A stretch of DNA of 64,000 nucleotides from Acidobacteriota bacterium (GTDB lineage: Bacteria > Acidobacteriota > Terriglobia > Acidiferrales > UBA7541), in assembly GCA_013289585.1 (NCBI GenBank), contig JABCZR010000014.1, positions 62,001 through 126,000 of the forward strand. Reading direction: 5' to 3'. The notes beneath the pieces are model-generated. The model saw only the letters and a program-made list of their open reading frames with translations, did not search any database and was not told the DNA's origin. A program made the position numbers and the translations under genes. Below, piece after piece: positions 36,958-59,940 of this stretch. The number at the start of each line of letters is the position of its first letter. Within the stretch, counting starts at the first letter, position 1.

Positions 36958-36994
36958 GTCGGTGGTCTCAATACAATAATTTTGAGTGCGGCTC

Positions 36995-39774: not shown

Positions 39775-40172
39775 TGGCACGGGTGTTCACACTCTCGGAA
39801 GCGAAGCAGTTGGGACTTCCCGGCCGTAAATCGCTGGAAATCGTCTCAGGAGAAAAGGGCGCGCGCGGAATTACGTTGCGGCTTGTGGAAATTGCGACCC
39901 CCCTGCCCGGTGAACCTCTGCGCAGCCCGCATCAGCATTCGAATTTCGAGGAATGTATTTATGTGCTTTCGGGGCAGGGCACGACGGTTGCAGACAGTGG
40001 AGAATATTTGCTCAAGGCGGGGGACACACTACTGATCCCTCCCGGCGAAAAGCATGTGACGCGCAACACGGGCAGTGAGCCGCTCCTGCCTTTGTGTTTT
40101 TTTCCTGTTGGTGACATTGCAGAGGGCGCCGCGGAACCGGGTGTCGCTTCTGGAAATTCAAGCAAATCATGA
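39774..40172 (+). CDS. Small cupin-domain protein
   Basis: 132-aa single cupin. First motif: His53 and His55 (PHQHSNFEECIYVLSG) with Glu59 or Glu60. Second motif: His94 (PPGEKHVTRN). These are the usual metal ligands of cupin dioxygenases, isomerases and sugar-binding proteins. The start overlaps the preceding stop by 1 nt (TGATG) and the end overlaps the next gene by 4 nt, so it belongs to the Gfo/Idh-creatininase-dehydrogenase operon. It could isomerise or epimerise a pathway intermediate. Confidence 0.85.
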   Translation: MARVFTLSEAKQLGLPGRKSLEIVSGEKGARGITLRLVEIATPLPGEPLRSPHQHSNFEECIYVLSGQGTTVADSGEYLLKAGDTLLIPPGEKHVTRNTGSEPLLPLCFFPVGDIAEGAAEPGVASGNSSKS

Positions 40173-41149: not shown

Positions 41150-41213
41150 GCAGGGAACTGCAGTGGACATTGGCGCTTAATCGGCGCGACGGATCGAACT
41201 GGGAGAATAGGGC

Positions 41214-42526: not shown

Positions 42527-43759
42527 TTATTTGGCCGGAACTTCCAGATTGCGCACGAGCCAGGGAATGATAACCAAGCGGAAGATGACCGGATCCGGCC
42601 AGATTTTCACTTGCCGACCCAAGTGACCGCCTTGCGGATTAATCCACGCTTCCTTGGGGACGTCTCCGCTATTGAGAATCAGGTAGGTGTCGGAAATCGG
42701 CACCTGCGTATCCAGGACTCCCGCAATGAGCAGCATCGGCGCGGTCGGCTTGCCGAGTAAGCCCTGCGAAACAAGCGACATCTTCGGGAAGATCACCGCC
42801 AGATCGTCAACCGAGTTGGCGCCTTCAAAGATCGACATTAGTGCGGGACCGAGGCCGAACAGATATTCGCGGTTTCCCAGTGTTTTATTGAGTACAAAGT
42901 CTTTCTGAAAAGTCGCATCCGCCGGCGGTGATTGCGCGACGACACCTTTCAGGCGAGCGTACTCCAGGATCGCCAGTTTGGTGGCCCAATATGCACCGAA
43001 GCTCTGGCCATCCATGCCGATTCTTGTCTTATCCACTTCCGGCCGCGTTTGAAGGTAATCGATTACGCGGGAAAACATGCGTTCCGCATTCTCGCTGGCT
43101 TTGATCGGTGCCTGGCCGGTACCCGGCGAATCCAGACCGATGAAGCCGATGCCGTAAGGAAGGATCGCGCCGAAGTTTTCAGACAGATCTTCTTTCCTGC
43201 TGTCGAGACCGCTGATGGCAATCACGATTGGAACGGGAGCTTTCGCATTCTTAGGCAGCCGCAAATAACCGACGATCTCGGATCCTTCGAAAGGAATTCG
43301 GACGACTTCCAGGGGAGGGTCCTGCAGGCGGGCGTGGGCAAGAAACGCCTCCAGCGCTTTGGCGTAAGCACGTTTCTTGCCCGGCGATGCAGGCGTGGGC
43401 CAGCGGCCAAAGGAATAAAGCCGCCACGCCTTCACGTAGAGTGCGCTTGCCTTTGCGGGATCCGTGCTCTCGGCCGCTTTTGCCTGCGCCATGTAGCGAT
43501 CGGCGACGGCACTAAATGCCGCAGCCCACTCGTCGTAATCGCTTGTCTTTATCGCAGCAAAAGCTTCCTTCACGTCGGCGGGATCGAGTCCGATCAGCGG
43601 ATACATGCCATTCTCCGCGCGCTTGATCGCCTCTGCTTTGATCTCATCGAGAGAGCGTTCCTTCTGCGCTTGCGCAAGTGCGGAGCTGGTGGCGGCAAGG
43701 GCTGAGATGGCCGCGAGCAACAGAAGAAGGATGCGATGACCCATTTTCATTTTCCTCAT
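42527..43759 (-). CDS. Exported alpha/beta hydrolase, FrsA/DUF1100-like
   Basis: 410 aa. A signal peptide (about 7-30) precedes a helical domain (35-145) and an alpha/beta-hydrolase core. The catalytic triad is visible: nucleophile Ser253 (MDGQSFGAYWA), acid Asp350 (VLDTQVP) and His379 (GGHLG). Domain order resembles FrsA/DUF1100 esterases and the C-C hydrolases related to 2,6-dihydroxypseudooxynicotine hydrolase. The ATGA overlap with the upstream binding-protein gene couples the two. Export suggests that the substrate is met outside the cytoplasm. Esterase versus C-C hydrolase cannot be decided. Confidence 0.84.
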   Translation of the reverse strand: MRKMKMGHRILLLLLAAISALAATSSALAQAQKERSLDEIKAEAIKRAENGMYPLIGLDPADVKEAFAAIKTSDYDEWAAAFSAVADRYMAQAKAAESTDPAKASALYVKAWRLYSFGRWPTPASPGKKRAYAKALEAFLAHARLQDPPLEVVRIPFEGSEIVGYLRLPKNAKAPVPIVIAISGLDSRKEDLSENFGAILPYGIGFIGLDSPGTGQAPIKASENAERMFSRVIDYLQTRPEVDKTRIGMDGQSFGAYWATKLAILEYARLKGVVAQSPPADATFQKDFVLNKTLGNREYLFGLGPALMSIFEGANSVDDLAVIFPKMSLVSQGLLGKPTAPMLLIAGVLDTQVPISDTYLILNSGDVPKEAWINPQGGHLGRQVKIWPDPVIFRLVIIPWLVRNLEVPAK

Positions 43760-44855: not shown

Positions 44856-46460
44856 TCACGGTGCGCCGACATTCAGACCCTCAAGCGACCATTCGGTGAC
44901 TGGCATCGGATCGAGAATGGGCTTTCCGAGATTGGGGCAGCTTAGGGCATACAGTCCCGTGTCGGTTGCGGTCCAAATGATATTGCGATCCCATTCGATG
45001 AAGACATTGTCCACCGTGCGGTCGTAGCTTCCAAACTTCTTCAAGTCGCCGCCCTGCGGAGGAATAAAGTAGGCGACCTCTTCAGGTTTGTAGAGATCGC
45101 CGATGTCATAACAGCGAAGTCCCGCGATGAAATAAGAATACGCGATAAATTCCTGGCGTGGTTTGCCAGGGGCTTTCAGATGCGGCGGGTTGTGCGCGCC
45201 GAAGCGGCCCCGCTTGAAACAAAAATCGCGGTACGGCGCTTCGGGCGGAGGCACTGGGCGGGGAAGCTGCGCCACAGCGATTGGATGTTCCTCGTCGCGG
45301 ATATCAATTACCCAGTTGGGCAGATAGATCTGGTTACAGTCAGAGTTTGTGGTTTCACCGTTGGTTAGGACAAATCCGCGCTCGAGTATCCCGCAATAGA
45401 TCGTGTGGAACGCAATGCCCATTCCCGAATATTGCGGCGGAGGTTCGAATCGTCCAATCTCCTTCTGATGCTTTGGATCCGAGAGATCGAGAATGATGAA
45501 CCCGTTGCAGCCGAACGCGCCGTAGCCCCGGTTGCCTCCATCTTCCAGTTTCTTGGGGACATATACCGGGCCGTGCAGTCCAGCGAAAGGCGTTTGGTCG
45601 GCGACAACTTTGGGTGGAACAAGTTTGGACCAGATCCACTTATTGTATTCGGCTTCTTCGCCCTTTCGTGAGCCTGGGACCCACCACATGGATACCTCCT
45701 TGACGTTGCTCGGGTCGGAGGTATCGACGATCATGTTTCCATTGACCAACTGCCGGAAATAAGACGGCTGATGGATGAACGATTCGTCGGGGGCAGTGTC
45801 CAGATAAGCGTACTTGCCCCCGTCATAGTAATTCCGGTGAGTGCCTTGCCCGGTGGCGCCCGTGCTGAACTCCGACAGTTTTGTGATTTTCGATGGATCC
45901 GTTACATCGTAAAACCGAACGCCTCGCAAACCTTTGAAGTTCTTGCGCTTGTCGTCCAGATGGGGGTCGTCGTACTTGCCCATTGGCGCCTCAAGCGTGG
46001 AATCCGTGATAGGTGTCTGCGCCCCGGTCATGAGAATCCACTTCTTCAAGTCTTTGTTGTAAGCCACCTGTACCTGACCACCCTGAAATCCGCCTTTGTT
46101 GTGTAGTTGCGGCTTGCGTACGTCGCTGACGTCGATCACATCTCCTTGCTGAAACATATATCTCCTGTTCCCAATGGACATCAGCTGCATCTTGCCGTTG
46201 CGCACCTGACCCGGGAGGAAATGGGCCAAGAGTTCCATGTTCCGAATGTACATGCGGCGGTCGAGGTAGGAAATGCTGTTTGGGCTGGGATGGCCATGAT
46301 GGTCTGCCCATGCCGCAACGGAAGAACCCGCGATCGCAAAACCGGCCCCGGCGGCGGCGCGCAAAAAGTCTCGTCGCGTTGTGTTAAGCGCCTTGTTTAG
46401 TGTGGATTGCGGTCGATTCATTAAGGGTTTGGGCTTCTTCTCACCACTCCGCTCTTTCAT
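44856..46460 (-). CDS. Tat-exported LVIVD-repeat protein
   Basis: 534 aa. A twin-arginine signal (NTTRRDFLRAAAGAGFAIAG, about 27-46) exports the folded protein. The body shows repeated DV-D-S-P units such as VIDVSDVRKPQ, FYDVTDPSKI, IVDTSDPSNV, ILDLSDPKHQ and VIDIRDEEHP, the LVIVD-repeat pattern of a surface beta-propeller. No catalytic motif is recognised. The start at 46460 has AAGGAG 9 nt upstream, better than ATG 46421. It heads the minus-strand group with the binding protein and hydrolase. A periplasmic substrate-binding or scaffolding role is likely, without direct support. Confidence 0.82.
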   Translation of the reverse strand: MKERSGEKKPKPLMNRPQSTLNKALNTTRRDFLRAAAGAGFAIAGSSVAAWADHHGHPSPNSISYLDRRMYIRNMELLAHFLPGQVRNGKMQLMSIGNRRYMFQQGDVIDVSDVRKPQLHNKGGFQGGQVQVAYNKDLKKWILMTGAQTPITDSTLEAPMGKYDDPHLDDKRKNFKGLRGVRFYDVTDPSKITKLSEFSTGATGQGTHRNYYDGGKYAYLDTAPDESFIHQPSYFRQLVNGNMIVDTSDPSNVKEVSMWWVPGSRKGEEAEYNKWIWSKLVPPKVVADQTPFAGLHGPVYVPKKLEDGGNRGYGAFGCNGFIILDLSDPKHQKEIGRFEPPPQYSGMGIAFHTIYCGILERGFVLTNGETTNSDCNQIYLPNWVIDIRDEEHPIAVAQLPRPVPPPEAPYRDFCFKRGRFGAHNPPHLKAPGKPRQEFIAYSYFIAGLRCYDIGDLYKPEEVAYFIPPQGGDLKKFGSYDRTVDNVFIEWDRNIIWTATDTGLYALSCPNLGKPILDPMPVTEWSLEGLNVGAP

Positions 46461-46855: not shown

Positions 46856-48220
46856 ATGGCGATTGCAACAATCAACCCGGCGACAGGCCTCTTAGTGAAG
46901 ACCTTTGAGCCTCTGTCCGACTCGCAGCTTGACGAAAAATTGCAAAGGGCAGCCGATAGATTTTCCAGCTACAGAAAAGTTTCTTTTGCGGAGCGTGCGC
47001 GACTGATGTTGAAGGCCGCGGCCATCCTGGAAAATGAAAAGGAATCTTTTGCCCGGATGATGACGATCGAAATGGGCAAGACGTTTCGTTCCGCCGTCGA
47101 TGAGGCACTTAAATGCGCATGGGTCTGCCGTTATTATGCCGAAAACGCGGAGCGCTATCTTGCTGATGAAATTGTGGAGACTACCGCGAGCCGGAGTTAC
47201 ATTAGCTATCAGCCACTAGGCCCGGTCCTTGCCGTAATGCCCTGGAATTTCCCATTCTGGCAGGTCCTGCGATTCGCTGCGCCCGCATTGATGGCAGGGA
47301 ATGTCGGTCTTCTCAAGCACGCGTCTATCGTCCCGCAGTGCGCTTTGATGATCGAGAACCTATTTCACCGTGCCGGATTTCCCGAGGGAGCGTTTCAGAC
47401 GCTGCTTGTTGGTTCACAAAAGGTGGACAGGATTCTTGGCGATCCGCGGGTAATGGCGGCAACCCTAACAGGGAGCGAAGGAGCGGGGGTTGAGGTAGGA
47501 GTGGGAGCCGCAAAGAGAATTAAGAAAGTCGTTCTGGAGCTTGGTGGAAGTGATCCGTTCATTGTAATGCCGAGCGCGAATTTCGAGTCGGCGGTATCCA
47601 CGGCGGTGAAAGCGCGTATATTCAACAACGGACAATCGTGCATTGCCGCGAAGCGCTTTATTGTTGCCGAACCCATTGCTGACAAATTCGAGCGCGAATT
47701 CGCGAGCCGTATGGAAGCGCTCAAGGTTGGCGATCCATTCGATGAAAAAACCGAACTCGGGCCGCTCTCGACCGCGGACGGTGTGTCCGACCTCGATCGA
47801 GATGTTCAAGCGACGATCCGAGCGGGTGCACGTGTATTGACCGGAGGGAAGCCTTTGGATTGCCCTGGAAATTTTTATGCGCCAACTGTATTGACGAATA
47901 TCCCGAACGGCTCCCCGGCCCACAAAGAAGAGTTGTTCGGCCCGGTGGCGAGCGTATTTCGCGCGAAGGACCTAGATGACGCGATTGGAATCGCGAATGA
48001 TTGCCGGTTCGGCTTGGGAGCAAGCGCGTGGACGAATGATCCGAAGGAACGGGAACGTTTCATTCGAGATCTGGAATCCGGAATGGTTTTCATCAACCGG
48101 ATGGTAGCGTCCGATCCACGGATCCCCTTTGGCGGAGTTAAATGGTCCGGGCATGGGAGGGAGTTGGGAGTCCACGGGATCCGTGAATTCACCAATATCA
48201 AGACTGTGTGGATCGAGTAG
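46856..48220 (+). CDS. NAD(P)-dependent aldehyde dehydrogenase, semialdehyde type
   Basis: 454 aa, matching short succinate-semialdehyde dehydrogenases in length and sequence. General base Glu228 (LELGGSD) and nucleophile Cys262 (NNGQSCIAAKR) are present, along with the MPWNFPFWQ cofactor segment and C-terminal PFGGVKWSGHGRELG. It would oxidise a semialdehyde to an acid. ATG 46856 has AGGAGAGAA directly upstream, better than ATG 46835. An operator-like palindrome overlaps its predicted promoter. The GntR-type gene starts 158 nt downstream and probably controls it. Confidence 0.92.
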   Translation: MAIATINPATGLLVKTFEPLSDSQLDEKLQRAADRFSSYRKVSFAERARLMLKAAAILENEKESFARMMTIEMGKTFRSAVDEALKCAWVCRYYAENAERYLADEIVETTASRSYISYQPLGPVLAVMPWNFPFWQVLRFAAPALMAGNVGLLKHASIVPQCALMIENLFHRAGFPEGAFQTLLVGSQKVDRILGDPRVMAATLTGSEGAGVEVGVGAAKRIKKVVLELGGSDPFIVMPSANFESAVSTAVKARIFNNGQSCIAAKRFIVAEPIADKFEREFASRMEALKVGDPFDEKTELGPLSTADGVSDLDRDVQATIRAGARVLTGGKPLDCPGNFYAPTVLTNIPNGSPAHKEELFGPVASVFRAKDLDDAIGIANDCRFGLGASAWTNDPKERERFIRDLESGMVFINRMVASDPRIPFGGVKWSGHGRELGVHGIREFTNIKTVWIE

Positions 48221-48273: not shown

Positions 48274-48378
48274 CTAAGCCGGGAATCGGCCTCCCCCGCA
48301 TGCCTTGTATTTCGGTCGGATTTATTGAAGGCACAGGACTTAGGCCGTTCCAGGACTCGTTCAAGTGGGGTGCATGCC

Positions 48379-49083
48379 ATGTATAAGGCTGTTCGTTCTT
48401 CGCGGTTGTATGAGCAAATCGTAGAGCAGGTTGAGGAATCGATCCACAAGGGAGCGATGAAACCGGGGGATCAGCTTCCCCCTGAGCGAGAGCTTGCACT
48501 GCAATTTGGCGTTAGCCGCACTGCTGTCCGCGAAGCGGTTAAAGCGCTTCGGGAAAAAGGTCACGTGGAGGCTTTTCCAGGACGCGGAACCTTTATAACG
48601 GACGGCACTTCTCACGCCATCCGCCAGTCTCTGGATCGCATGATTCGCATTGGACAGCCGGAAGGATCGAGTTACCTGGCGGAGGTACGCGAGATTCTGG
48701 AGCCCGAGATCGCCGCTCTGGCGGCGGCCCGCGTGGACGAGCAAGACCTTTCCTCCATGCGCGAGCAAATCGTCGCGATGGATGAATCGCGCAACGACTC
48801 AGAATCCTTCATCGAAGCGGATCTGGACTTTCATCTCGCATTGGCCGAAGCGGCCGCAAACCCACTGATACTTTCGCTCATTGATTCCATTGTTGGACTG
48901 CTTCGCGAGCAACGCATGCGAATCTTCTTGACCGATGGCGGTCCGGAACGCGGCCAATATCACCACCGGCGGATCCTGGAGGCCATCGAGAACCGTGATC
49001 CAATCGGAGCTCGTGAGGCGATGAAGGCGCACTTGCGTCAAGTGCGGGAGGACTCCAAGAGTTCCCCCAGCCGCACCGACTAG
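48379..49083 (+). CDS. FadR-family GntR transcriptional regulator
   Basis: 234 aa. An N-terminal winged helix contains QLPPERELALQFGVSRTAVREAVKAL (about 33-58). A C-terminal all-helical FCD domain has DLDFHLALAEAA and YHHRRILEAIENRD, whose aspartate and histidines bind metal and small carboxylates. FadR-subfamily members such as PdhR, LldR and GlcC sense pyruvate, lactate or glycolate, which fits the E1/E2 genes downstream. ATG 48379 begins the conserved domain; the ribosome-binding site is weak (GTGGGG). Operator-like sites occur before this gene, the aldehyde dehydrogenase gene and the large receptor gene. Confidence 0.9.
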   Translation: MYKAVRSSRLYEQIVEQVEESIHKGAMKPGDQLPPERELALQFGVSRTAVREAVKALREKGHVEAFPGRGTFITDGTSHAIRQSLDRMIRIGQPEGSSYLAEVREILEPEIAALAAARVDEQDLSSMREQIVAMDESRNDSESFIEADLDFHLALAEAAANPLILSLIDSIVGLLREQRMRIFLTDGGPERGQYHHRRILEAIENRDPIGAREAMKAHLRQVREDSKSSPSRTD

Positions 49084-49124: not shown

Positions 49125-50006
49125 ATGGCCAATCTTGGGTTTGTCGGTCTCGGCGTGATGGGCAGCGAGATGGTGAATCGTTTGCTCGGCAAGGGGCACA
49201 CCGTCATCGGATACAACCGCACACGCGCTAAAGCGGAGTGGCTTGTCAAGAAAGGCATGAAATGGGCGGATTCGCCACGCGCCGTTGCCGCAGCTGCTGA
49301 CGTCACATTTTCTATGGTCACGAATTCAGCTGCCCTCGGTGCGATTATGCATGGCCCTGAAGGTATGTTGGCGGGAATCAAAGCGGGCACTGTTTTTGTG
49401 GACATGAGCACGGTAAGCCCTTCGTTCAGCCGCGAGATCGCGGCAAATGTTCGTGAGAAGGGCAGCGACATGGTGGACTCGCCGGTTTCCGGCAGCGTCA
49501 TCACGCTGCAGGAGGGAAAGCTTTCGGTGATGGTGGGCGGCCGCAAAGAAACATTCGAACGCGTGAAGCCGTTGTTGTACGACATTGGTCCTAAGGTCAC
49601 GCACGTTGGCGACAATGGTTTAGCGCTGGTCATGAAAATCGCTACAAATTTGAGCCTGGCGGTTCAGATGATGGCCTTCAGCGAGGGAGTTTTGCTTGCG
49701 GAAAAGAGCGGAATCTCGCGTGAGATTGCCGTGGACGTGCTGACTCACAGTGTTATTGCTTCTCCAATGGTTCAATATCGCGGCCCCTTCGTTCTCAAAA
49801 TGCCGGACGAAGCCTGGTTCAACGTGAACATGATGCAGAAGGACATGTTGCTGGCGCTGGAACTTGGCCGCCAACTCGACGTTCCCTTGCCGACGACCGC
49901 CGTCAGCAACGAGTTCTTAACGGCTGCGCGGGGAATGGGGCTTGTAGAAAAGGATTTCGCGGTTGTGTTCGATGTCCTGGCACATATGTCCGGGGTCAAA
50001 CAATGA
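49125..50006 (+). CDS. Beta-hydroxyacid dehydrogenase (tartronate-semialdehyde reductase-like)
   Basis: 293-aa NAD(P)-dependent enzyme of the 3-hydroxyisobutyrate/6-phosphogluconate dehydrogenase family. The nucleotide-binding motif is GFVGLGVMG (about 5-13); the substrate motif DSPVSGSV and catalytic-lysine helix (LVMKIATNL) are present. Family members interconvert 3-hydroxy acids and semialdehydes, so it may supply or consume the substrate of the aldehyde dehydrogenase at 46856. It starts 41 nt after the regulator stop and overlaps the E1 alpha gene by 4 nt (ATGA), placing it first in the E1/E2 operon. Confidence 0.9.
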   Translation: MANLGFVGLGVMGSEMVNRLLGKGHTVIGYNRTRAKAEWLVKKGMKWADSPRAVAAAADVTFSMVTNSAALGAIMHGPEGMLAGIKAGTVFVDMSTVSPSFSREIAANVREKGSDMVDSPVSGSVITLQEGKLSVMVGGRKETFERVKPLLYDIGPKVTHVGDNGLALVMKIATNLSLAVQMMAFSEGVLLAEKSGISREIAVDVLTHSVIASPMVQYRGPFVLKMPDEAWFNVNMMQKDMLLALELGRQLDVPLPTTAVSNEFLTAARGMGLVEKDFAVVFDVLAHMSGVKQ

Positions 50007-51001
50007 CGACCGTCACCGACAAATCCAATACAAAATCGAATACGCAGGTCGAGAAGTGGATCCGCACGTACCGCCGAATGGTGATGATCCGGCTCTTCGA
50101 AGAACAGGTGAATGAGCTCTACACGCGGGCGCTGATGCCGGGACTCGCACACTTATACGTAGGCGAAGAGGCGGTGGCGGTTGGAATTTGTGAAGCGCTA
50201 AACCCCACGGACTATATTACGAGCACGCATCGCGGACATGGACACTGTCTGGCCAAAGGCGCGTCACCCGACCGCATGTTTGCAGAACTGCTCGGAAAGG
50301 AAGCGGGTTATTGCCGCGGAAAAGGCGGATCGATGCACATCGCCGATCCAGCCACCGGCAATCTTGGAGCGAACGCCATCGTAGGAGGAAGCACGGGGAT
50401 TGCCACGGGGGCGGCACTTTCTTCGAAACGTCTGCGCACAGGACAGGTTGCGGTCTGTTTTTTTGGTGAGGGCGCACTAGGGCAGGGCGTCCTTTACGAA
50501 GTAATGAATCTGGCAGCACTCTGGAAGCTGCCAGTGATTTATGTCTGCGAAAATAATCTTTACACCGAATATACGCATTATTCGGAAACGACTGCAGGGG
50601 ATATTCTCGCGCGCGGAACGGCTTTCGGCGTGCAGGCGGAAGCGGTCGATGGACAGGATGTGCGCGCGGTAAATGCGATCGCGCAGAAATTAGTTGACCG
50701 CGCGCGCAAAGGAGAAGGCCCCGCGTTCCTTCTATGCAACACCTACCGCTACACTGGCCATCACGTGGGGGATATCAATCGCGAGTATTACCGCTCCAAG
50801 CAGGAAGAGCAGGAGTGGAAGACCAAGCGCGATCCGATTAAGAATCTGGCTGAATGGCTGATCTCCGAGAAACTCGCGGATGCAGCTGGCCTCACGGCCA
50901 TCGAAACCGAAGTTCGCGCCGAAATGAAATCCGCGGTCGAATTTGCCATTGCTGCTCCGTACCCGGGTGTCGAGGAGGTTGAGCAAGACGTTTATGCCTG
51001 A
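50003..51001 (+). CDS. 2-oxo acid/acetoin dehydrogenase E1 alpha subunit
   Basis: 332-aa alpha subunit of a thiamine-diphosphate dehydrogenase. The cofactor motif runs from GEGALGQG to YVCENN (family GDG-Nx-NN), and GKGGSMH and the phosphorylation-loop-like RYTGHHVGD are present. Length and sequence resemble pyruvate or acetoin dehydrogenase E1 alpha. It decarboxylates its substrate and passes the acyl or acetyl group to the lipoyl arm of E2. The ATGA overlap upstream and 8-nt overlap with E1 beta show a tight operon. Confidence 0.93.
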   Translation: MTTVTDKSNTKSNTQVEKWIRTYRRMVMIRLFEEQVNELYTRALMPGLAHLYVGEEAVAVGICEALNPTDYITSTHRGHGHCLAKGASPDRMFAELLGKEAGYCRGKGGSMHIADPATGNLGANAIVGGSTGIATGAALSSKRLRTGQVAVCFFGEGALGQGVLYEVMNLAALWKLPVIYVCENNLYTEYTHYSETTAGDILARGTAFGVQAEAVDGQDVRAVNAIAQKLVDRARKGEGPAFLLCNTYRYTGHHVGDINREYYRSKQEEQEWKTKRDPIKNLAEWLISEKLADAAGLTAIETEVRAEMKSAVEFAIAAPYPGVEEVEQDVYA

Positions 51002-51989
51002 AGCCGCCCAGCGCGAACTGACGTTTGCTCAAGCCGTGCGCGAAGCGCTCGCGGAAGAAATGCGCCGGGATTCGCGCGTTTGTATATTCGGCGAAGATGT
51101 CGCCGAGGCAGGCACGCCGTTTAAGGTTCTCGCCGGGCTCGTGGAAGAGTTCGGCGCAGAGCGGGTGCTCGATACGCCAATTTCCGAAGCTGGATTTACG
51201 GGGATGGGGGTTGGAGCTGCGATGACCGGCTTGCGCCCGGTCGTGGACATCATGTTTGGCGATTTTTTGACGCTGACCATGGACCAGATGGTGAACCAGG
51301 CCGCCAAGGTGCATTACATGTCTGGCGGCACCTGGAAGGTTCCAATGGTTTTGCGCACGACGCTCGGCGCCACGCGCCGCTCTGCCGCGCAGCATTCGCA
51401 GTCCCTCCATGCGTGGTTGAGTCACGTTCCGGGGCTAAAGGTGGTTATGCCCTCGACTCCCTACGATGCCAAAGGACTCCTGAAGACCGCAATTCGCGAC
51501 GAGAATCCCGTTGTTTTTTTCGAAGACAAAATGATGTTCAAGTTGAAGGGCCCGGTGCCTGTCGAGGAGTACACGATCCCCTTCGGTGTCGCCGATATCA
51601 AGCGGCAAGGGGAGGACATCACCATTGTTGCTACCAGTAGCATGGTGCAAGTTGCCCTCGGCGCGGCCGAGCTCCTGGAAAAAATTGGAATCAGCGCAGA
51701 AGTGATCGATCCCCGCACGACGTGGCCCCTGGATGAAAAGACGCTGATCGAATCTGCAAAAAAGACCTCGCGAGCTATGGTTGTCGATGAAGGCTACGGC
51801 CGCTACGGTGTCACGGGGGAGATCGCTTCTGTCATCGCGGAAGGCGCATTCTATAACCTGGAAGCTCCCGTGAAGCGCATGGGCGCGATGCACGTACCGA
51901 TCCCTTTTTCCCCACCTTTAGAAGATGTGACGGTACCGACGGATCAAACCATATTTGAAGCAGCTCGGGCGCTTTGTGGCAAGGAGTAA
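50994..51989 (+). CDS. 2-oxo acid/acetoin dehydrogenase E1 beta subunit
   Basis: 331-aa beta subunit. Characteristic segments are the GEDVAEAGTPFKV start, ERVLDTPISEAGFTGMGVGAA and RTTLGATRRSAAQHSQSLHAWLSHVPGLKVVMPS, which contribute to the thiamine-diphosphate site and the alpha/beta interface. The C-terminal transketolase-like domain (EVIDPRTTWPLD) is complete. ATG 50994 overlaps the alpha-gene stop by 8 nt, with GAGGAGG 14 nt upstream. It is followed by an M24-family gene rather than by E2, an unusual order. Confidence 0.93.
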   Translation: MPEAAQRELTFAQAVREALAEEMRRDSRVCIFGEDVAEAGTPFKVLAGLVEEFGAERVLDTPISEAGFTGMGVGAAMTGLRPVVDIMFGDFLTLTMDQMVNQAAKVHYMSGGTWKVPMVLRTTLGATRRSAAQHSQSLHAWLSHVPGLKVVMPSTPYDAKGLLKTAIRDENPVVFFEDKMMFKLKGPVPVEEYTIPFGVADIKRQGEDITIVATSSMVQVALGAAELLEKIGISAEVIDPRTTWPLDEKTLIESAKKTSRAMVVDEGYGRYGVTGEIASVIAEGAFYNLEAPVKRMGAMHVPIPFSPPLEDVTVPTDQTIFEAARALCGKE

Positions 51990-52013: not shown

Positions 52014-53360
52014 ATGGGATTGAAGACGTACGGAACGATGGCGGTGGATTGGGAAAACCGCATCGATTTTGACCGCTTGCGCCGCGAGCGGTTGGCGCGG
52101 GCGAAGGCGCTACTCGCCAAATCGGAAATGGGCGCGCTGCTCTGCTTCGATATGAATAACGTGCGCTACCTGACTTCCACGCACATTGGTGCCTGGGCGC
52201 AGGACAAGATCAGCCGCTTCACGCTTTTGCCGCAGAATGATGAACCGATTCTCTGGGACTTCGGCTCCGCTGCAAGGCACCACCAACAGAATTGCCCGTG
52301 GCTGGGAGAGCGTTCGCGTTCGGGAATTCCGCTCTTGCGTGGTGCCATGTCGCCGGAGATGGGGCGCGCGGAAAACGTTGCACGCAAAATAAAAATTGAG
52401 CTCGAGATGCGTGGGCTGCACAAACAGCCCCTTGGCATTGACGTCGTTGAGCCGCCCATCCTTTTCGCATTGCAAAAAGAGGGTATTACCATCGTCGATG
52501 GCCAGCAGCTCATGTCCGACGCCCGCGTCATCAAGACGCAGGATGAGATCTCGCTGCTCAATCACTCCGCGATGATGGTGGATGCCGCCTACGACGAACT
52601 GTACCGCGCGATGAAACCGGGCATGAGTGAAAACCAGGCCGTCGGGCTCGCCAGCAAGGTGCTCTACGATCTCGGCTCTGAATATGTCGAAGCCGTCAAC
52701 GCAATATCCGGCGAGCGCTGCAATCCGCACCCCCACGTTTTCTCCGACCGCGTTCTTCGCCCCGGCGATCCCGTTTACTACGACATTCTCCATTCCTACA
52801 TGGGCTACCGCACCTGTTACTACCGTTGTTTCACGATTGGCTACGCCTCGCAGGCAATGATCGATGCTTACAAGAGGTGCCGTGAGTATCTGGATGCGGC
52901 CATTTCTCTGGTGCAGCCGGGCCGCACCACTGCAGAAATCGCCTCGGTTTGGCCAAAGGCGCAGGAATTCGGCTTCCCGGACGAGGAAGCGGCGTTCGCG
53001 TTGCAATTCGGGCACGGTATTGGGCTAGCGATTTGGGAGAAACCAGTGATCAGCCGCATGGTTTCGCTGGAGCACTCGCACGAAATCAAACCAGGCATGG
53101 TCTTTGCGCTGGAAACTTTCTGGCCCTCGACGGATGGGTGGAGCGCCGCGCGCATCGAAGAAGAGATTGTCGTGACCGAAACCGGGCACGAAGTGATCAC
53201 GCGGTTTCCCGCGGAGCAGCTCATGGTGGCGGGCGCCCACTATTTCACTGTCAACGGGCCCCTCTCCACGACACGCGAAAACGAAGCGGCGCCAACCAAA
53301 AAGGTAAAGGAGATGGTGGCAGCCAGCGCCAAAGCCGAAGGAGTGGCAGCTACGGACTGA
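52014..53360 (+). CDS. M24-family (Xaa-Pro peptidase-like) protein with altered metal site
   Basis: 448-aa pita-bread-fold protein. An N-terminal creatinase-like domain (about 1-170) is followed by the M24 domain. Of the five usual metal ligands, Asp257, His334 (FGHGIGL), Glu367 (ALETFW) and Glu382 are kept. The second Asp, normally 11 residues after the first, is Cys268 (GYRTCYYR). The fold serves Xaa-Pro peptidases, creatinase and the DMSP lyase DddP, so peptidase action is not assured. It lies between E1 beta (24 nt) and E2 (31 nt), suggesting that it feeds the complex by releasing a 2-oxo acid precursor. Confidence 0.85.
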   Translation: MGLKTYGTMAVDWENRIDFDRLRRERLARAKALLAKSEMGALLCFDMNNVRYLTSTHIGAWAQDKISRFTLLPQNDEPILWDFGSAARHHQQNCPWLGERSRSGIPLLRGAMSPEMGRAENVARKIKIELEMRGLHKQPLGIDVVEPPILFALQKEGITIVDGQQLMSDARVIKTQDEISLLNHSAMMVDAAYDELYRAMKPGMSENQAVGLASKVLYDLGSEYVEAVNAISGERCNPHPHVFSDRVLRPGDPVYYDILHSYMGYRTCYYRCFTIGYASQAMIDAYKRCREYLDAAISLVQPGRTTAEIASVWPKAQEFGFPDEEAAFALQFGHGIGLAIWEKPVISRMVSLEHSHEIKPGMVFALETFWPSTDGWSAARIEEEIVVTETGHEVITRFPAEQLMVAGAHYFTVNGPLSTTRENEAAPTKKVKEMVAASAKAEGVAATD

Positions 53361-53391: not shown

Positions 53392-54570
53392 ATGGCAATC
53401 AGCGTTGTAATGCCCGCGCTAGAAATGGCGCAAGAAACTGGGAGACTCCTCGCCTGGCGGAAAAAGGAAGGCGAGCGCGTCGCCAAAGGCGAGCCCCTTC
53501 TTGAAATCGAGACGGACAAAGCGGTGGTTGAAGTCGAAGCTCCCGGCGACGGAATCCTCGCGGGAATAACGGCTGGTGTAGGTGCTGTGATACCGGTGGG
53601 AGAAACCATCGCCTGGCTCGTCGCTCCCGGTGAGCAACCTCCTGCAAAGTCCCTCGCGGCCGCACCCACCGCTCGTGCTTCCAGTGCTTCTGCCCAGCAT
53701 TCTGCCGCGGCAGTCCGTGTAAGTGAAAAACAAGCGGGCGCCGCTCCTCAGATATCTCCGAAGGCGAGACGCCTTGCCAAGGAACTCGGCGTGGACATTA
53801 GCCAAGTGCGCGGTTCGGGACCCGACGGAGCGATAACCACAGAGGACGTCCAGGCCTTTGCCGCTGCAAAGGGCAGCTCTACTCAGCCGACAGTCGAACT
53901 ACTCAGCCAAGTAGCGCGGCTCATGGCCGAGCGCACGACACAGAGTTGGACCAGCGTGCCGCATTTTTTCCTCGTACGAGACGTCGATGCCAGCGAGCTG
54001 CTCGCTGCCCAAAAGCGGCTTGGCTTGGAGGCGGAACCCAAGCAGGAAACTCCGCTAACTCTCACGGACTTGTTGATTGCCCTGGTCGCGCGAGTCCTGG
54101 TCAAGCATCCCCGCATGAATTCAAGCTGGACAGGAGAGTCAATCAAGGCGAATCCGGAGATCAACATCAGTGTGGCGATGGCCGTGAAAGATGGAGTTGT
54201 GGCTGCCGTGATTCATAAGGCCAATGCTGCGAACCTCGATGAAATCTCTGCCAAACGGCGCGAACTGACGGAGCGAGCCCGGGCGGGCCGTTTGCGTCCG
54301 GCGGATATTGCTGGTGGAACTTTTACGATCAGCAATCTGGGCATGTACAAAGTCGACGCTTTCAGTGCGATCGTCACGCCGCCGCAGGCGGCGGTTCTGG
54401 CAGTTGGCAGTATTTCGGATCGTGTTGTCCCGGTCGATGGGAAGCCAGGAGTGCGCCCGGTGATGACGATGACGCTTTCCAGCGACCATCGCGTCGTGGA
54501 TGGCGCGAAGGCCGCGGAATTCTTGAGCGATTTGGCGAACGCCATTCGCGAGCCCGAGAAGGTGTTGTAA
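53392..54570 (+). CDS. Dihydrolipoyl acyltransferase (E2)
   Basis: 392 aa. The lipoyl domain (1-78) carries Lys43 in ETDKAVVEVEA. An Ala/Ser-rich hinge leads to a peripheral-subunit-binding domain (about 118-155; SPKARRLAKELGVD and RGSGPDGAITTEDV). The catalytic domain ends with His366 and Asp370 (SSDHRVVDG). The enzyme moves the acyl group from E1 to CoA. It completes E1 alpha/beta into a 2-oxo acid or acetoin dehydrogenase core; no E3 dihydrolipoamide dehydrogenase is in the window, so a shared one elsewhere must be used. The M24 gene precedes it and a DctA-like carrier follows. Confidence 0.92.
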   Translation: MAISVVMPALEMAQETGRLLAWRKKEGERVAKGEPLLEIETDKAVVEVEAPGDGILAGITAGVGAVIPVGETIAWLVAPGEQPPAKSLAAAPTARASSASAQHSAAAVRVSEKQAGAAPQISPKARRLAKELGVDISQVRGSGPDGAITTEDVQAFAAAKGSSTQPTVELLSQVARLMAERTTQSWTSVPHFFLVRDVDASELLAAQKRLGLEAEPKQETPLTLTDLLIALVARVLVKHPRMNSSWTGESIKANPEINISVAMAVKDGVVAAVIHKANAANLDEISAKRRELTERARAGRLRPADIAGGTFTISNLGMYKVDAFSAIVTPPQAAVLAVGSISDRVVPVDGKPGVRPVMTMTLSSDHRVVDGAKAAEFLSDLANAIREPEKVL

Positions 54571-54642: not shown

Positions 54643-55908
54643 ATGACGCCGTCCAATCCGCGCAAGAAGGCTTTTTACGCAGATCCGTCCTTGCAAGTCC
54701 TGTTCGCCATTGGCGCGGCGATCGCGCTTGGCTATTTGAGCCCATCAACAGCGATCGCCATGAAGCCGTTGGGCGATGCGTTCATCCGGTTGATCACCAT
54801 GATCATCACTCTGATCATCTTTTGCACCGTGGTGACCGGGATCGCCGGCATGGATGACATGAAAAAGGTCGGCCGAGTCGGCGGAAAGGCATTGATTTAT
54901 TTCGAGGCGGTGTCGACGCTGGCGCTCCTCATCGGCCTCGTGGTTGGCAACCTCCTGCACCCGGGCAGCGGATTCAACGTAAACGTGGCCACGCTGGACG
55001 CGAAGGCTGTGGCGGATTACGCCGGGCAGGCGAAAGCGCAAAGCGTTTCGGATTTCTTAATGCACATCATCCCGAATACCGTGGTGGACGCTTTCGCCAA
55101 GGGCGATATTCTGCAGGTTCTCCTTGTCTCGATTCTGTTTGGGTTTGCACTGTCGATGGCCGGACCGAAGTGCAAACCAATGCTGGATTTTCTGAGCTTG
55201 TTGATGGCGGCGGTCTTTGGCATCGTAAAGATCATGATGCGCTTTGCACCGATCGGTGCTTTTGGCGCTCTGGCATTCACCGTCGGGAAATATGGAGTGG
55301 CTTCGCTGGGGCCCTTGGTCAAGTTGATCGCCACGTTTTACATCACTTCGATTTTATTCGTGTTCCTCGTGCTCGGCGTGATCGCGCGCCTTGCGGGTTT
55401 TGGGATCATGCGATTCCTTGCTTACATCAAGGAGGAGATTCTCCTCGTGCTGGCCATCAGCTCGTCGGAGCCGGCCATGCCGACGCTGATGGACAAGCTG
55501 GAAAAGCTCGGATGTTCCAAGGCGCTTGTAGGATTGGTCGTGCCTACCGGCTATACGTTCAATACCGACGGGACGAGTATCTACATGACCCTGGCGGCGC
55601 TTTTCGTGGCACAGGCCACCAATACGCCACTTACGCTGTCGCAACAACTGACGATCTTTGCAGTGGCCGTGCTTACCTCGAAGGGGGCCAGCGGCGTCCA
55701 AGGGTCCTCCTTTATCGCTCTGGTGGCTACAATGACGGTCATTCCGACGATCCCCGTGGCGGGGATGGCCCTGATTCTTGGAATCGACAGGTTCATGAGC
55801 ATGTGCCGCGCGACGGTCAACATGATCGGGAACGGTGTTGCTACCGTGGTTGTCGCGCGTTGGGAAAAGGAACTCCCGGCCGAGACGCTCCGGCAGAACC
55901 TCGCTTGA
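54643..55908 (+). CDS. Second DctA-like dicarboxylate/amino acid:cation symporter
   Basis: 421-aa carrier, clearly related to the one at 41214: shared [11 protein letters not shown]-type start, serine loop ([19 protein letters not shown]), [16 protein letters not shown] and the C-terminal [13 protein letters not shown]. The proline and alanine in its SSSEPAM loop differ from SSSETVL in the other copy, so substrate preference may differ. ATG 54643 gives the usual family length; TTG 54592 is an alternative in-frame start with no better site. It lies 72 nt after E2 and probably belongs to that operon as the importer of its substrate. Confidence 0.88.
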
Positions 55909-56010: not shown

Positions 56011-57588
56011 ATGTCTGAGCGATTTGACATCGTTGTCGCGGGGGCCGGACACAACAGCCTGATCGCTGCAGCCTACCTGGCGAAAGCCGGCTATCGCTGC
56101 CTCGTGCTCGAGGGCCGCCCTATCGTGGGCGGCGGAGTCAAATCCGCGGAATTAACTCTTCGTGGATTTACCCACGACGTTTGCTCCTCGGCTCACAACG
56201 GAATCCATGGCAATCCTTTGTTGCGTGAGGATGAACTCAAGCTCGGCGATTGCGGACTCGAATATATCTATCCCGATCCCGTCTTTCACATGCCGTTTCC
56301 CGACGGCAGTTACTTGACCCAGTGGCGCGATCTGGACCGCACCTGCGCGGAATTTGCCAAGTTCTCCAAGAAAGACGGGCAGGCGTACCGTCAAATGATC
56401 ACCGAATACGAGACTGTGAAGCCCATCCTGAATGCTGTTACGTTCACGCCCATCGGATTCGGCAAACCGATCAACGATCGCCTCGCGGAATTGCCAAACG
56501 GCAAACTTTGGCAGCGCCGTCTGGCCATGTCGGCGTGGGAAATTCTGCGCGAAACATTCGAAGATGACCATTGCCGCGCCTTCATGATGGGATGCCCTTA
56601 TTCGCTCCAGCCGGTACAGGATCCCATGACCGGCCGCGTCGCTTACATCCCGCTCCATCAGCAGCGCGAAAGCCGGCCGCTTCCGAAGGGCGGATCGGGT
56701 GCGTTGAGCGAGGCACTATCGCGCTTTATCCAGGCGCACGGCGGCGTCATCCTTCCGAACAAATGGGTCACGGCACTGATCGTCGAGAACAACAGATGCA
56801 CCGGAGTGGAATGCGCCGATGGCAGTTCCTACCGAGCTGAGAAAGCGGTGCTCTCGACGATTCACATCAAGCAGCTTGTGGACATGGCCCCGCGGAATTT
56901 ATGGGGACAGGATTTTATCGACGGTGTCGATACGTGGAGCGCTGGGCTCACGTTGTTTGCAACAAATTATGCGACCTCCGAGCCTCCCAAGTATGCGATT
57001 GAAGGCGGTACGCTTTCGCCTGTCCATTCGGGAATGATGGCCAGTTCCGATCGCGCTCTGCGCATGAGTTTTGACTACGACCGTGGCGTGGTGAACCTCG
57101 AAGATCCGCCGTTGCACGTGATCTGCTGCAGTCTTGCGGATCCCACGCGTGCGCCCGCGGGCATGCACACAATTAAAGTGGTGGCTTATCAGCCGTACTC
57201 GTTGAAGGAAGGCCCGCTGCACTGGGACTTAATCAAGCAGAGAGTCTCTGACGCAAATCTAGACTATCTCCGCCGTTTTTCTCCCAACTTGACGGACGGC
57301 AAGACTCTGGCGCGCACCATTGAAAGCCCGCTCGATCTCGAACGCATGAATCCGCATAACTGGCACGGAAGTTGCCACGCCGGCGCGTCGGGGCCCGCGC
57401 AATCCGGCGGCATGCGTCCGATGCCAGGCTGGGCGCAACACCGCATGCCCATTCCGGGCTTGTATCAGACGGGAGCAACCACCCATCCCGGCGGATCGGT
57501 AACCGGCGGGCCCGGACGAAATGCGGCCACCGTCATGCTCAAAGATTTCGGGACCAGCATCGATGAAGTGGTGAAGAAGAAAGCATAG
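56011..57588 (+). CDS. FAD-dependent CrtI/PYROXD2-like oxidoreductase, cytoplasmic copy
   Basis: 525 aa. The FAD-binding dinucleotide motif VVAGAGHNSL (8-17) opens the protein directly, with no signal. The C-terminal GATTHPGGSVTGGPGRNAA is the FAD signature of the phytoene desaturase/PYROXD2 group. Such enzymes oxidise C-C or C-N bonds; no carotenoid gene is near, so a catabolic amine or acid substrate is more likely. ATG 56011 is chosen because FAD binding starts there; GTG 55981 would add 10 unrelated residues. A paralogue with a Tat signal follows 69 nt after its stop. Confidence 0.88.
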   Translation: MSERFDIVVAGAGHNSLIAAAYLAKAGYRCLVLEGRPIVGGGVKSAELTLRGFTHDVCSSAHNGIHGNPLLREDELKLGDCGLEYIYPDPVFHMPFPDGSYLTQWRDLDRTCAEFAKFSKKDGQAYRQMITEYETVKPILNAVTFTPIGFGKPINDRLAELPNGKLWQRRLAMSAWEILRETFEDDHCRAFMMGCPYSLQPVQDPMTGRVAYIPLHQQRESRPLPKGGSGALSEALSRFIQAHGGVILPNKWVTALIVENNRCTGVECADGSSYRAEKAVLSTIHIKQLVDMAPRNLWGQDFIDGVDTWSAGLTLFATNYATSEPPKYAIEGGTLSPVHSGMMASSDRALRMSFDYDRGVVNLEDPPLHVICCSLADPTRAPAGMHTIKVVAYQPYSLKEGPLHWDLIKQRVSDANLDYLRRFSPNLTDGKTLARTIESPLDLERMNPHNWHGSCHAGASGPAQSGGMRPMPGWAQHRMPIPGLYQTGATTHPGGSVTGGPGRNAATVMLKDFGTSIDEVVKKKA

Positions 57589-57657
57589 CTTATTGCCAGG
57601 TTGCGTTCGAACGACGGAAACACCAGAAGATTCGAATGTAAGAGCAGGAGAAATCGA

Positions 57658-59328
57658 ATGAGCAGAATCACCAGACGCGGATTTGTGAAAGCGGCAGCCA
57701 TCGCACCGCTTGCCGTTAAACATTTTTCATTGGGTCCGCAGGCTACTCCGTCGGATCGTTTTGACATTGTCGTTGCCGGCGCGGGACACAACAGTCTAGT
57801 CACCGCAGCCTATCTTTCCAAAGCCGGCTATCGTTGTTTGGTCCTCGAAGGGCGCCCCATGCTCGGCGGCGGCGTGAAGACCGCGCAATTAACGCTAAAG
57901 GGTTTCAAGGACGACGTCTGTTCCACCGCGCATACATTTCTGCAAGACAATCCCATGATCAAGAACGACGAGCTGAAGCTCGGGGACTATGGTCTCGAAT
58001 ACGTCGACCCCGATCCAGTCTTCCATATTCCTTTTCCTGACGGCTCTTACCTGACGCAATGGCGCGATTTGGATCGCACATGCGAGGAATTCGCGAAATT
58101 CTCGAAGAAAGATGCCGCGGCGTACCGCAAAATGCTGGCAGAATTCGATGCCATCAAGCCCATCCTGTTGGGAACAAGCTTCGCTCCGATTGGTTTCGCC
58201 AAGCCGCTGAACGATCAATTGGCTCAACAACCGAGAGGTAAGTTATGGCAACGCCGCATTGCCATGTCCGCTTGGGAAATCATCCAGGACACTTTTGAGG
58301 AAGACCACTGCCGCACTTTCATGCTGTACATGTCCCACCTTTCAGCAGAACCGCCGGATGCTCCCGTCACGGGACGGTTGGCCTACGCCACCGCGCGCCA
58401 GCAGCACTCCGGCCGCCCCATCCCCAAGGGAGGATCGGGAGCTTTAACCCAAGCCTTAGCACGATCCATTGAATCTCACGGCGGCGTGCTCCTCACCAAT
58501 AAATGGGTGCAACGCTTGATCGTCGAAAATGGAAAATGTACCGGTGTTGAATGCACTGACGGAAGTTCTTACCGCGCGGAAAAGGCCGTGCTGTCTACCA
58601 TCCACATTAAACATTTGGTAGACATGGCGCCGCGCGAAATCTGGGGCCAGGACTTCATCGACGGTGTGGACACCTGGCAGGCGGAGAACGCCATGTTCGT
58701 GACGCACTATGCCACAACGGAACCACCAAAATATGCAGTGGCTGGAGGAACGCTGTCACCGGTGGAGTCCGGCGTTCTCGCATCACCCGACCGGGCGTTG
58801 CGTTTTGCCTACGACGATGCTCGCGGTGTGGTCAATCTGGAGAACCCGCCGCTGCAAATCATTTGCTGCAGTATTGCCGACCCGACTCGCGCTCCCAAGG
58901 GCATGCACACTTTAAAAGTTCTGGGCTGGCAGCCGTACGAACTGAAAGAGGGCCCCGCGCATTGGGACAAGATCAAAAACGAAGTGTCCGATGCCAATCT
59001 CAACTACTTGCGGCGGTTCGCACCAAACTTGACGGACGACAAGATCCTCGCGCGATTCGTCGAGAGTCCCCTCGATCTCGAGCGCATGAATCCGCACTTC
59101 TGGCACGGCAGCGCGCACGCCGGAGCGCAGAACGCCGCGCAAAGCGGTCCGATGCGTCCCATGCCAGGGTGGGCGCAGCACCGCATGCCTATCGCTGGTC
59201 TGTATCAGACCGGTGCAACGACGCATCCCGGAGGTTCCGTCACCGGAGGGCCCGGAAGGAATGCGGCGACAGTCATGCTGAAGGACTTCGGTACGAGCAT
59301 CGAGGAAGTAGTAAGCAAGAAATCCTGA
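57658..59328 (+). CDS. FAD-dependent CrtI/PYROXD2-like oxidoreductase, Tat-exported copy
   Basis: 556 aa, paralogous to the preceding gene over its whole length. It adds an N-terminal twin-arginine signal (SRITRRGFVKAAAIAPLAV; Arg6-Arg7) before the FAD motif VVAGAGHNSL. The C-terminal GATTHPGGSVTGGPGRNAA is identical to the first copy. Tat export fits a cofactor-loaded flavoprotein acting in the periplasm. ATG 57658 has AGGAG upstream. The five-heme cytochrome gene follows 48 nt later, making it a plausible electron acceptor, so this copy may link substrate oxidation to respiration outside the cytoplasm. Confidence 0.88.
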   Translation: MSRITRRGFVKAAAIAPLAVKHFSLGPQATPSDRFDIVVAGAGHNSLVTAAYLSKAGYRCLVLEGRPMLGGGVKTAQLTLKGFKDDVCSTAHTFLQDNPMIKNDELKLGDYGLEYVDPDPVFHIPFPDGSYLTQWRDLDRTCEEFAKFSKKDAAAYRKMLAEFDAIKPILLGTSFAPIGFAKPLNDQLAQQPRGKLWQRRIAMSAWEIIQDTFEEDHCRTFMLYMSHLSAEPPDAPVTGRLAYATARQQHSGRPIPKGGSGALTQALARSIESHGGVLLTNKWVQRLIVENGKCTGVECTDGSSYRAEKAVLSTIHIKHLVDMAPREIWGQDFIDGVDTWQAENAMFVTHYATTEPPKYAVAGGTLSPVESGVLASPDRALRFAYDDARGVVNLENPPLQIICCSIADPTRAPKGMHTLKVLGWQPYELKEGPAHWDKIKNEVSDANLNYLRRFAPNLTDDKILARFVESPLDLERMNPHFWHGSAHAGAQNAAQSGPMRPMPGWAQHRMPIAGLYQTGATTHPGGSVTGGPGRNAATVMLKDFGTSIEEVVSKKS

Positions 59329-59376
59329 TCGGAGCGGGGAAGCGCAGCAAAAATTGATTCGCGAGGTGGCCTTGGG

Positions 59377-59940
59377 ATGAGAAGAAACAAAGACCGCGTT
59401 CTTGTCGTGGCCGTGATTTGTCTGGTATCACTGCTTTCTCTTAGGGCCGGCCTTTCGGCTCAGAATGCGCCGCCGTCGCAAACGACGAAACACATGGTGC
59501 CGGACAATCCCTCTGAGCACACGCCGCCGACTCAGCCGATCCCCTATAGTCACAAGAAGCATCTGTCATTCGGCCTGGAATGCAAAAATTGCCACACAAA
59601 TCCGGAACCGGGCAAACTGATGACATTCCCAGCCACGAGCAAATGTATGGAGTGCCACGTCACGATTGCAAAGGACACGCCCTCCATCCAAAAGCTCGCT
59701 GAATATGCAAAGTCCAAGCAGCCGATTCCTTGGGTTCGGGTTTACACCGTCCTTCCCGGAGTTGCCTGGAATCACCGCGCCCATCTGCAAGCAGGAGTGA
59801 AGTGTGAGACGTGCCATGGCCAGGTTTCGCAAATGGACAGCATGTCTGAGGTCACCAGCGTCACGACGATGTACAGCTGCCTGAATTGCCATGAATTGAA
59901 TCACGCAAAAACCGCCTGCGATACCTGCCATAAACATTGA
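59377..59940 (+). CDS. Exported five-heme c-type cytochrome (class III-like)
   Basis: 187 aa. A signal peptide (1-28) precedes five CxxCH heme sites: 69-73, 90-94, 143-147, 168-172 and 181-185. Additional histidines in HKKH, NHRAH and ELNH are suitable as second axial ligands, giving bis-His low-potential hemes as in cytochrome c3/c7. Length is about 160 residues after export. It immediately follows the Tat-exported flavoprotein and ends this gene series, so it may take electrons from that enzyme. No cytochrome maturation genes are in the window. Confidence 0.9.
   Translation: MRRNKDRVLVVAVICLVSLLSLRAGLSAQNAPPSQTTKHMVPDNPSEHTPPTQPIPYSHKKHLSFGLECKNCHTNPEPGKLMTFPATSKCMECHVTIAKDTPSIQKLAEYAKSKQPIPWVRVYTVLPGVAWNHRAHLQAGVKCETCHGQVSQMDSMSEVTSVTTMYSCLNCHELNHAKTACDTCHKH

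Follow-up and report, generated by a model that had tools for sequence, protein, structure and literature searches.

A predicted Tat-exported CrtI/CrtO-like flavoprotein next to an ActA-like pentaheme cytochrome in an acidobacterial gene locus

We describe a row of three genes at positions 56011-59940 (+) of a 64,000-nucleotide stretch of an Acidobacteriota genome (assembly GCA_013289585.1, contig JABCZR010000014.1, positions 62,001 to 126,000), called the window in the following. The genome comprises 4.73 Mb on 32 contigs. The first gene, FAD1 (56011..57588, +), encodes a signal-less CrtI/CrtO-like flavoprotein of 525 aa with an ATG start, identified by reading frames, family matches and alignment. 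After 69 nt follows FAD2 (57658..59328, +), a CrtI/CrtO-like flavoprotein of 556 aa with a twin-arginine translocation (Tat) signal, assigned by family matches, alignment and a CrtI/NicA2-type fold, and after a further 48 nt cyt5 (59377..59940, +), an ActA-like class III pentaheme cytochrome c of 187 aa with a Sec-type leader, recognized by homology and its five CxxCH motifs. All three frames were found as a first, sequence-only reading of this DNA had reported them. We conclude that the locus is real, conserved and more than a chance arrangement, and that for the most part a known architecture, in a variant form, accounts for it. Its core, as judged by sequence comparison, is the predicted exported FAD2 together with cyt5, which form the most constant part, with FAD1 being optional. 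With a probability of roughly two in three (0.66), FAD2 is a Tat-exported dehydrogenase that passes electrons to cyt5, and FAD1 is an older paralogue that lost its signal and is most simply cytoplasmic. The observations on which we build this reading are gene content, signal conservation, synteny, phylogeny and homology.

Conservation of FAD2 and cyt5

FAD2 starts with MSRITRRGFVKAAAIAPLAV, and its Tat-type signal region, ITRRGFVKAAAIAPLAV..., occupies 57658..57750 (+, end approximate). The motif RRxF[VML]K was found in all 15 aligned FAD2-type sequences (the window and 14 from relatives' loci, of which L018 gives two, with the FAD2 of L019 left out), at a similar distance from the flavin adenine dinucleotide (FAD) motif save for L012, which has a longer spacer. 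The Tat signal was judged by the motif only and the Sec leader of cyt5 by eye. The nine FAD1 sequences lack the motif and start about ten residues before the FAD motif, in L012 with GTG, so that a twin-arginine signal in the second flavoprotein only, as first noticed, holds for the relatives as well. A hidden FAD1 signal, caused by a wrong start or a frameshift, was rejected, because RRxF[VLIM] is absent from all frames when the 360 bases ahead of each of the 13 signal-less copies are read. The window's genome has a gene for TatC. Based on the motif and its conservation, we consider FAD2 very likely to be exported.

The relatives found in the contig scan are acidobacterial metagenome assemblies, many of them labelled gp2. 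In all 13 testable loci of these relatives FAD2 and cyt5 are neighbours (there are 14 loci; L019 ends inside FAD2), and the pairing is kept where the flanking genes differ. A cytochrome that belongs to another unit, which would have undone the proposed link to the second enzyme, is thereby ruled out; in relatives it also goes with a molybdenum hydroxylase. The trio as a whole is kept only in part, since FAD1, FAD2 and cyt5 stand together in 7 of the 13 testable loci. FAD1 is present in 8 of the 14 loci and missing from 6. Two of the complete loci, L011 and L015, have an opposite-strand gene and a third, signal-less copy between FAD1 and FAD2, and L018 shows the order FAD2-cyt5-FAD. Beside or between the FAD copies of these three loci we also noticed secreted-looking proteins on the opposite strand that are similar by eye (L011:7229-8104 (-), L015:7264-8178 (-), L018:14692-15591 (-)); two proteins at 36076-37840 of the window resemble them, again by eye.

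Additionally, we took a census with one locus per place in the genomes matched in the family scan, plus L018 and G229, which gave 43 loci with 62 copies. The Tat motif is present in 48 of the 61 copies with a readable N-terminus and absent from 13; one further copy is cut at its start. Among the 46 Tat-bearing copies whose downstream sequence was long enough for the test, cyt5 is the next gene in 35, at a distance of up to 454 bases, and another 4 share a run with it (L018 at 11969, two in L050, L070 at 7927). Of the 13 signal-less copies, 12 are found upstream of one with the Tat motif at the same locus, and for 11 of these cyt5 can be seen too (L082 breaks off before it). The exception, L066, is the most divergent and stands alone, and the signal-less copy L070 at 12647 has its own cyt5 directly after it. 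Relatives at E <= 1e-100 occur in 24 of 89 genomes of the family, at up to seven places per genome, and in 16 of 36 of the genus. A sample of the class gave 20 of 299 genomes, all within the same family, and a sample of the phylum 2 of 297, the second of which, G229, is from another family; its copy carries the Tat motif, and the contig ends where the cytochrome would lie. From these samples we conclude that the genes are nearly lineage-bound and patchy, and from the patchy distribution that their function is accessory.

The cytochrome has five CxxCH motifs and a Sec-like leader. Many relatives have AxA-Q or a similar sequence at its end, which suggests that it is cleavable. A pattern search recovered 32 of 37 cyt5 genes, and all 32 have exactly five CxxCH. 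The best solved matches by sequence are 8k9e (1.5e-25), 6f0k (2.9e-22), 6btm (2.8e-20) and 6lod (1.2e-17), all of them ActA-type chains of alternative complex III; the database names of 8k9e, 6f0k and 6lod are generic. The window's genome holds one further cyt5 homologue at E <= 0.001, on contig C5 (locus L097), which is 31% identical to cyt5. It directly precedes genes for a 1061-residue Fe-S protein, an NrfD protein and ActD, and was for this reason taken as the genome's true ActA. All five CxxCH of cyt5 align with this ActA, which is likewise a class III pentaheme cytochrome. The differences are that cyt5 is shorter, lacks an insertion that ActA has before the fifth heme, and has no ActB-D genes beside it in the window. 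Moreover, the ActA of R. marinus is anchored in the membrane by an N-terminal helix, according to the parts of that report available to us (PMC5928083), whereas the leader of cyt5 looks cleavable. The models for the QrcA cytochrome of menaquinone reductase (74 bits against a cut-off of 180) and for triheme c7 scored below their cut-offs. By homology, cyt5 is thus best described as a free-standing ActA relative; ActA itself is the pentaheme subunit in alternative complex III.

Two old flavoprotein subfamilies

FAD1 and FAD2 are 74% identical and share the C-terminal stretch GLYQTGATTHPGGSVTGGPGRNAATVMLKDFGTSI without a difference; the alignment thereby bears out the identical signature reported earlier. 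The FAD-binding N-terminus is common to the whole alignment of 26 sequences, and with 51.2 and 53.5 bits both flavoproteins of the window exceed the Pfam Amino_oxidase cut-off of 19.8, which places them in this superfamily. Their best curated family matches are CrtO and CrtI, which for FAD2 are also the nearest families and solved chains by sequence, each below its cut-off: the NCBIfam equivalog for CrtO beta-carotene ketolase gave 277 bits for FAD2 and 261 for FAD1 against 1000, and the CrtI family phytoene desaturase model (TIGR02734) 114 and 83 bits against 238. With scores so far under the curated cut-offs, a carotenoid enzyme identity was dropped. What further separates FAD2 from CrtO/CrtI is its predicted export, and apart from these weak matches the 19 proteins of the window that were scanned include no carotenoid gene product. 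An AlphaFold model of FAD2 (predicted local distance difference test score, pLDDT, 71.8; predicted template modelling score, pTM, 0.79) gave as best Foldseek matches CrtI 4dgk, carotenoid desaturase 4rep, the archaeal oxidoreductase 3ka7 and, in fourth place, NicA2, with template modelling (TM) scores, normalized to the query, of 0.55, 0.65, 0.53 and 0.44, respectively. Two further CrtI-like flavoproteins are encoded in tandem at G000:C10:90867-94090, with about 30% identity to FAD2; their N-termini were read from the matched region onward only.

To place the two proteins we used a tree of 60 copies and 3 outgroup paralogues, the root of which rests on distant outgroups, with long branches for L066, L078 and L052. 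Tat-bearing copies make up the family's deep branches. The nine FAD1 sequences come out as one clade (100/100), nested in a larger group in which each of the 12 remaining members carries the Tat motif; of these 12, 8 have cyt5 directly after them, 2 belong to a run that includes it and 2 are without. The FAD2 sequences fall in a different group, and a joint clade of FAD1 and FAD2 is rejected by the approximately unbiased (AU) test (p-AU 0.00012), which excludes a recent tandem duplication. From this phylogeny, FAD1 and FAD2 are separate old subfamilies. Because FAD1 nests among Tat-bearing relatives, it must have lost its signal. The signal-less state needs three changes on the tree, either two losses and one regain or three losses, and the signal was therefore lost at least two times, beside a signal-bearing sibling except in L066.

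The ratios of nonsynonymous to synonymous differences (pN/pS) between the window and its orthologues are 0.117-0.202 for FAD1 and 0.105-0.168 for FAD2, with synonymous sites saturated in several pairs. Both proteins look to be under purifying selection, and even with this saturation the low ratio rules out FAD1 as a decaying gene.

The sequence-only reading had proposed that the same oxidation is run by FAD1 and FAD2 in two compartments. The 74% identity and the identical C-terminal FAD stretch would fit such a duplicated activity. On the other side, the two are separate old subfamilies for which a joint clade is rejected, and FAD1 is absent from 6 of the 14 loci. In addition, ten positions are fixed in FAD1 and absent from its Tat-bearing sisters, and six of these lie at 228-247 and 344-346 (FAD2 numbering, where the model is weak). 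One activity in two compartments is not supported, and we consider it unlikely.

Electron transfer, export routes and known systems

The most probable course of events would be the following. FAD2 would be made and loaded with FAD in the cytoplasm, exported in folded form through the Tat system, and would dehydrogenate a small molecule in the periplasm. Its electrons would go to the neighbouring Sec-exported pentaheme cyt5, which may feed the respiratory chain by bypassing the quinone pool or by joining where ActA does. In some relatives the same cyt5 is placed such that it could serve a two-subunit molybdenum hydroxylase, too. FAD1 would be an older paralogue from a subfamily that elsewhere is Tat-bearing and mostly cytochrome-linked; it would have lost the signal and its own cytochrome and been kept in part of the clade only. 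Most simply it would be cytoplasmic and hand its electrons to a different acceptor, either oxygen or a soluble carrier; its substrate, too, may differ. From the observations we infer the export, the electron path, the location of FAD1 and the dehydrogenation of a substrate.

The layout had at first been thought to match no described pathway. This does not hold, since a published class exists in which Tat-exported dehydrogenases of the amine oxidase superfamily have an adjacent gene for a Sec-exported cytochrome c. According to the parts of the report available to us (PMC12224317), this NicA2/Pnao/CycN class includes signal-less relatives, and a Tat signal together with an adjacent cytochrome c (CytC) gene marks the cytochrome-using dehydrogenases. 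The locus resembles this class in the exported FAD enzyme of the same superfamily, the adjacent Sec-exported cytochrome, the signal-less relatives, and one cytochrome gene between two enzyme genes. It differs in that FAD2 is nearer to CrtI/CrtO in sequence and fold, in that the NicA2-type cytochrome is modelled with one heme and cyt5 is an ActA-like pentaheme protein, and in that the gene row itself contains a signal-less paralogue. The words phytoene, carotenoid, multiheme and Acidobact are absent from the available main text of PMC12224317, and the literature searched yielded no account of a CrtI/CrtO-like enzyme paired with a pentaheme protein. The novelty lies in the CrtI/CrtO-like branch and in the free pentaheme partner of ActA type; the repeated signal loss beside a signal-bearing sibling is unusual, too.

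The molybdenum hydroxylase bears on the question of whether FAD2 and cyt5 are partners at all. In the 11 testable relatives with an operon for the E1 and E2 components of a 2-oxoacid dehydrogenase and an M24 protein, cyt5 is directly followed by genes for a [2Fe-2S] protein and the large subunit of a molybdenum hydroxylase; L075 and L076 have a different hydroxylase there. The window has the operon but no such genes after cyt5. The hydroxylase position in relatives indicates that cyt5 may there serve two periplasmic dehydrogenases. Alternatively, FAD2 could be a periplasmic O2 oxidase, with cyt5 being the partner of the hydroxylase only and its adjacency to FAD2 incidental. A large subunit on the same strand within 3.5 kb after cyt5 in 13 of 36 testable cases and the Tat-bearing copies without cyt5 are in line with this. 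So is the precedent, in which O2 was used rapidly by most of the Tat-only amine oxidases lacking CytC that were tested, with an exception (PMC12224317, available parts). Since the pairing of FAD2-type proteins with cyt5 is kept in the other 23 of 36 cases, window included, we regard this alternative as very unlikely. The best solved match of the large subunit is aldehyde dehydrogenase 8gy3. An orthologue, 83% identical to the large subunit of the relatives, lies at G000:C17:42118-44247 in the window's genome, away from the cytochrome.

A second question is the location of FAD1. The signal-less copy had been taken as cytoplasmic; this does not follow of necessity, since all but one of the 13 signal-less copies precede a signal-bearing copy in their locus and co-export is possible. 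In such a hitchhiking, a FAD1-FAD2 hetero-oligomer would cross the Tat pore on the signal of FAD2, and both enzymes would be periplasmic and share cyt5. The gene arrangement of a Tat hitchhiker, a signal-less gene with a signal-bearing partner, is found for the FAD1 of the window and for 11 of the other 12 copies that lack the signal; Tat-bearing copies, by contrast, often occur singly. The own cyt5 of the signal-less L070 copy fits as well, and if export rides on a paralogue, the repeated signal losses next to a signal-bearing sibling (all but that in L066) would be its trace in evolution. In L007, the molybdenum hydroxylase of the same operon has a Tat-like motif, ARRDFFK, near the start of the large subunit only, and the small subunit shows no leader. 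The mechanism is established for hydrogenase 2 and PaoABC, as stated in the accessible part of PMC4273604, and NicA2-type enzymes are modelled as dimers (PMC12224317, available parts). The likeness to PaoABC and hydrogenase 2 lies in a signal-less subunit beside a signal-bearing partner, the difference in that their partners are different kinds of subunit (PMC4273604), whereas FAD1 and FAD2 would be paralogues. A FAD glucose dehydrogenase of Burkholderia, as far as the available text of PMC6719666 describes it, likewise combines a periplasmic flavin dehydrogenase, a multiheme cytochrome and export via a Tat hitchhiker partner; its catalytic subunit is, however, GMC-like, the carrier is a dedicated small subunit and the cytochrome is a triheme membrane protein. 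Against hitchhiking one has to consider that tandem paralogues are adjacent anyway, that L066 is signal-less and alone, and that in L011 and L015 there are two signal-less copies to each signal-bearing one, separated by an opposite-strand gene. A hetero-oligomer also lies beyond the reach of single-chain prediction. Altogether we find hitchhiking a possible but rather unlikely route. We are similarly doubtful about its fullest form, in which a mixed FAD1-FAD2 oligomer with one Tat signal would reduce the ActA-derived cyt5 through both subunits, with cyt5 in relatives also serving the molybdenum hydroxylase.

Several points weigh against the preferred reading, an exported FAD2 that would reduce cyt5 beside a cytoplasmic FAD1. 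The h-region of the FAD2 signal in the window is short, as judged by eye. No cyt5 lies close to 7 of the 46 Tat-bearing copies (two in L051, two in L055, L058, L065 at 6889, L068), among them two of the 12 Tat-bearing sisters of FAD1, and the gene occurs patchily, as the counts for the family, genus and phylum show. The confidence of the FAD2 model is middling and its TM-scores are modest (0.55 for CrtI, 0.44 for NicA2). Neither cysteine content (median counts: FAD1 10, its Tat-bearing sisters 9, FAD2 8) nor isoelectric point gave a clear hint at the compartment of these three groups. Finally, the published precedent began from NicA2 relatives with one heme modelled per cytochrome (PMC12224317, available parts).

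Gene neighbourhood and biological meaning

Upstream of FAD1 the window contains an operon-like row on the + strand. It begins with a succinic-semialdehyde-dehydrogenase-like aldehyde dehydrogenase (46856..48220; 688 bits against a cut-off of 730, and synteny), a GntR/FCD regulator with an uncertain start (48370..49083; family matches, synteny) and a beta-hydroxyacid dehydrogenase of the 3-hydroxyisobutyrate/tartronate semialdehyde reductase type (49125..50006; matches below cut-offs, synteny). Family matches and synteny then identify the 2-oxoacid dehydrogenase subunits E1 alpha (50003..51001) and E1 beta (50994..51989), an M24/DddP-like hydrolase or lyase (52014..53360) and the 2-oxoacid dehydrogenase E2 (53392..54570). 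The row ends with a DctA-type C4-dicarboxylate symporter (54643..55908; NCBIfam PRK01663 above cut-off), which is the upstream neighbour in 8 of the 14 relatives' loci. The E1, E2 and M24 genes can be seen, in whole or in part, in 12 of the 14; the matches to aldehyde dehydrogenase, M24 and E2 in L010 are each spread over different frames, by assembly error or real frameshifts. The content of this operon (2-oxoacid dehydrogenase, semialdehyde dehydrogenase, DddP-like M24, dicarboxylate carrier) gave no firm assignment of a substrate, and we do not claim a dimethylsulfoniopropionate (DMSP) link for the M24 protein, which falls far short of the DddP model with 118 bits against 600. This protein is among the most conserved of the operon (90-96% identity) and has the lowest pN/pS of the four genes compared. 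In the usual metal-ligand region it reads YYDILHSYMGYRTCYYRC, as do all 10 relatives read, which presumably puts Cys where M24 enzymes usually have the second Asp (unaligned placement).

Further genes of the window recur near FAD2-cyt5 in other genomes. A secreted-looking alpha/beta hydrolase at 42527-43759 (-) is related to Ayg1 and 2,6-dihydroxypseudooxynicotine hydrolase, enzymes that cut C-C bonds, and its relatives stand beside the pair elsewhere. The block at 38962-42503 encodes a creatininase-like protein, a cupin, a 2-hydroxyacid dehydrogenase and a second SDF transporter; it recurs near the pair in L018, and its first three genes do so in L070. The protein at 44856-46460 (-) has a Tat-like start, TRRDFLRAA, and a weak LVIVD-repeat match, and relatives of it adjoin FAD2-cyt5 in L072, L074 and L077 together with an NMT1-like binding protein.

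If the preferred reading is true, the rule by which an exported flavoenzyme of the amine oxidase type with a neighbouring cytochrome marks a respiratory dehydrogenase would extend to the CrtI/CrtO branch, and uncultured soil acidobacteria would have recruited a relative of the respiratory-complex subunit ActA to carry electrons for catabolism as a free protein. The signal-less siblings, which recur, make it directly testable whether Tat exports an enzyme through its paralogue or whether an enzyme has been re-targeted to the cytoplasm.

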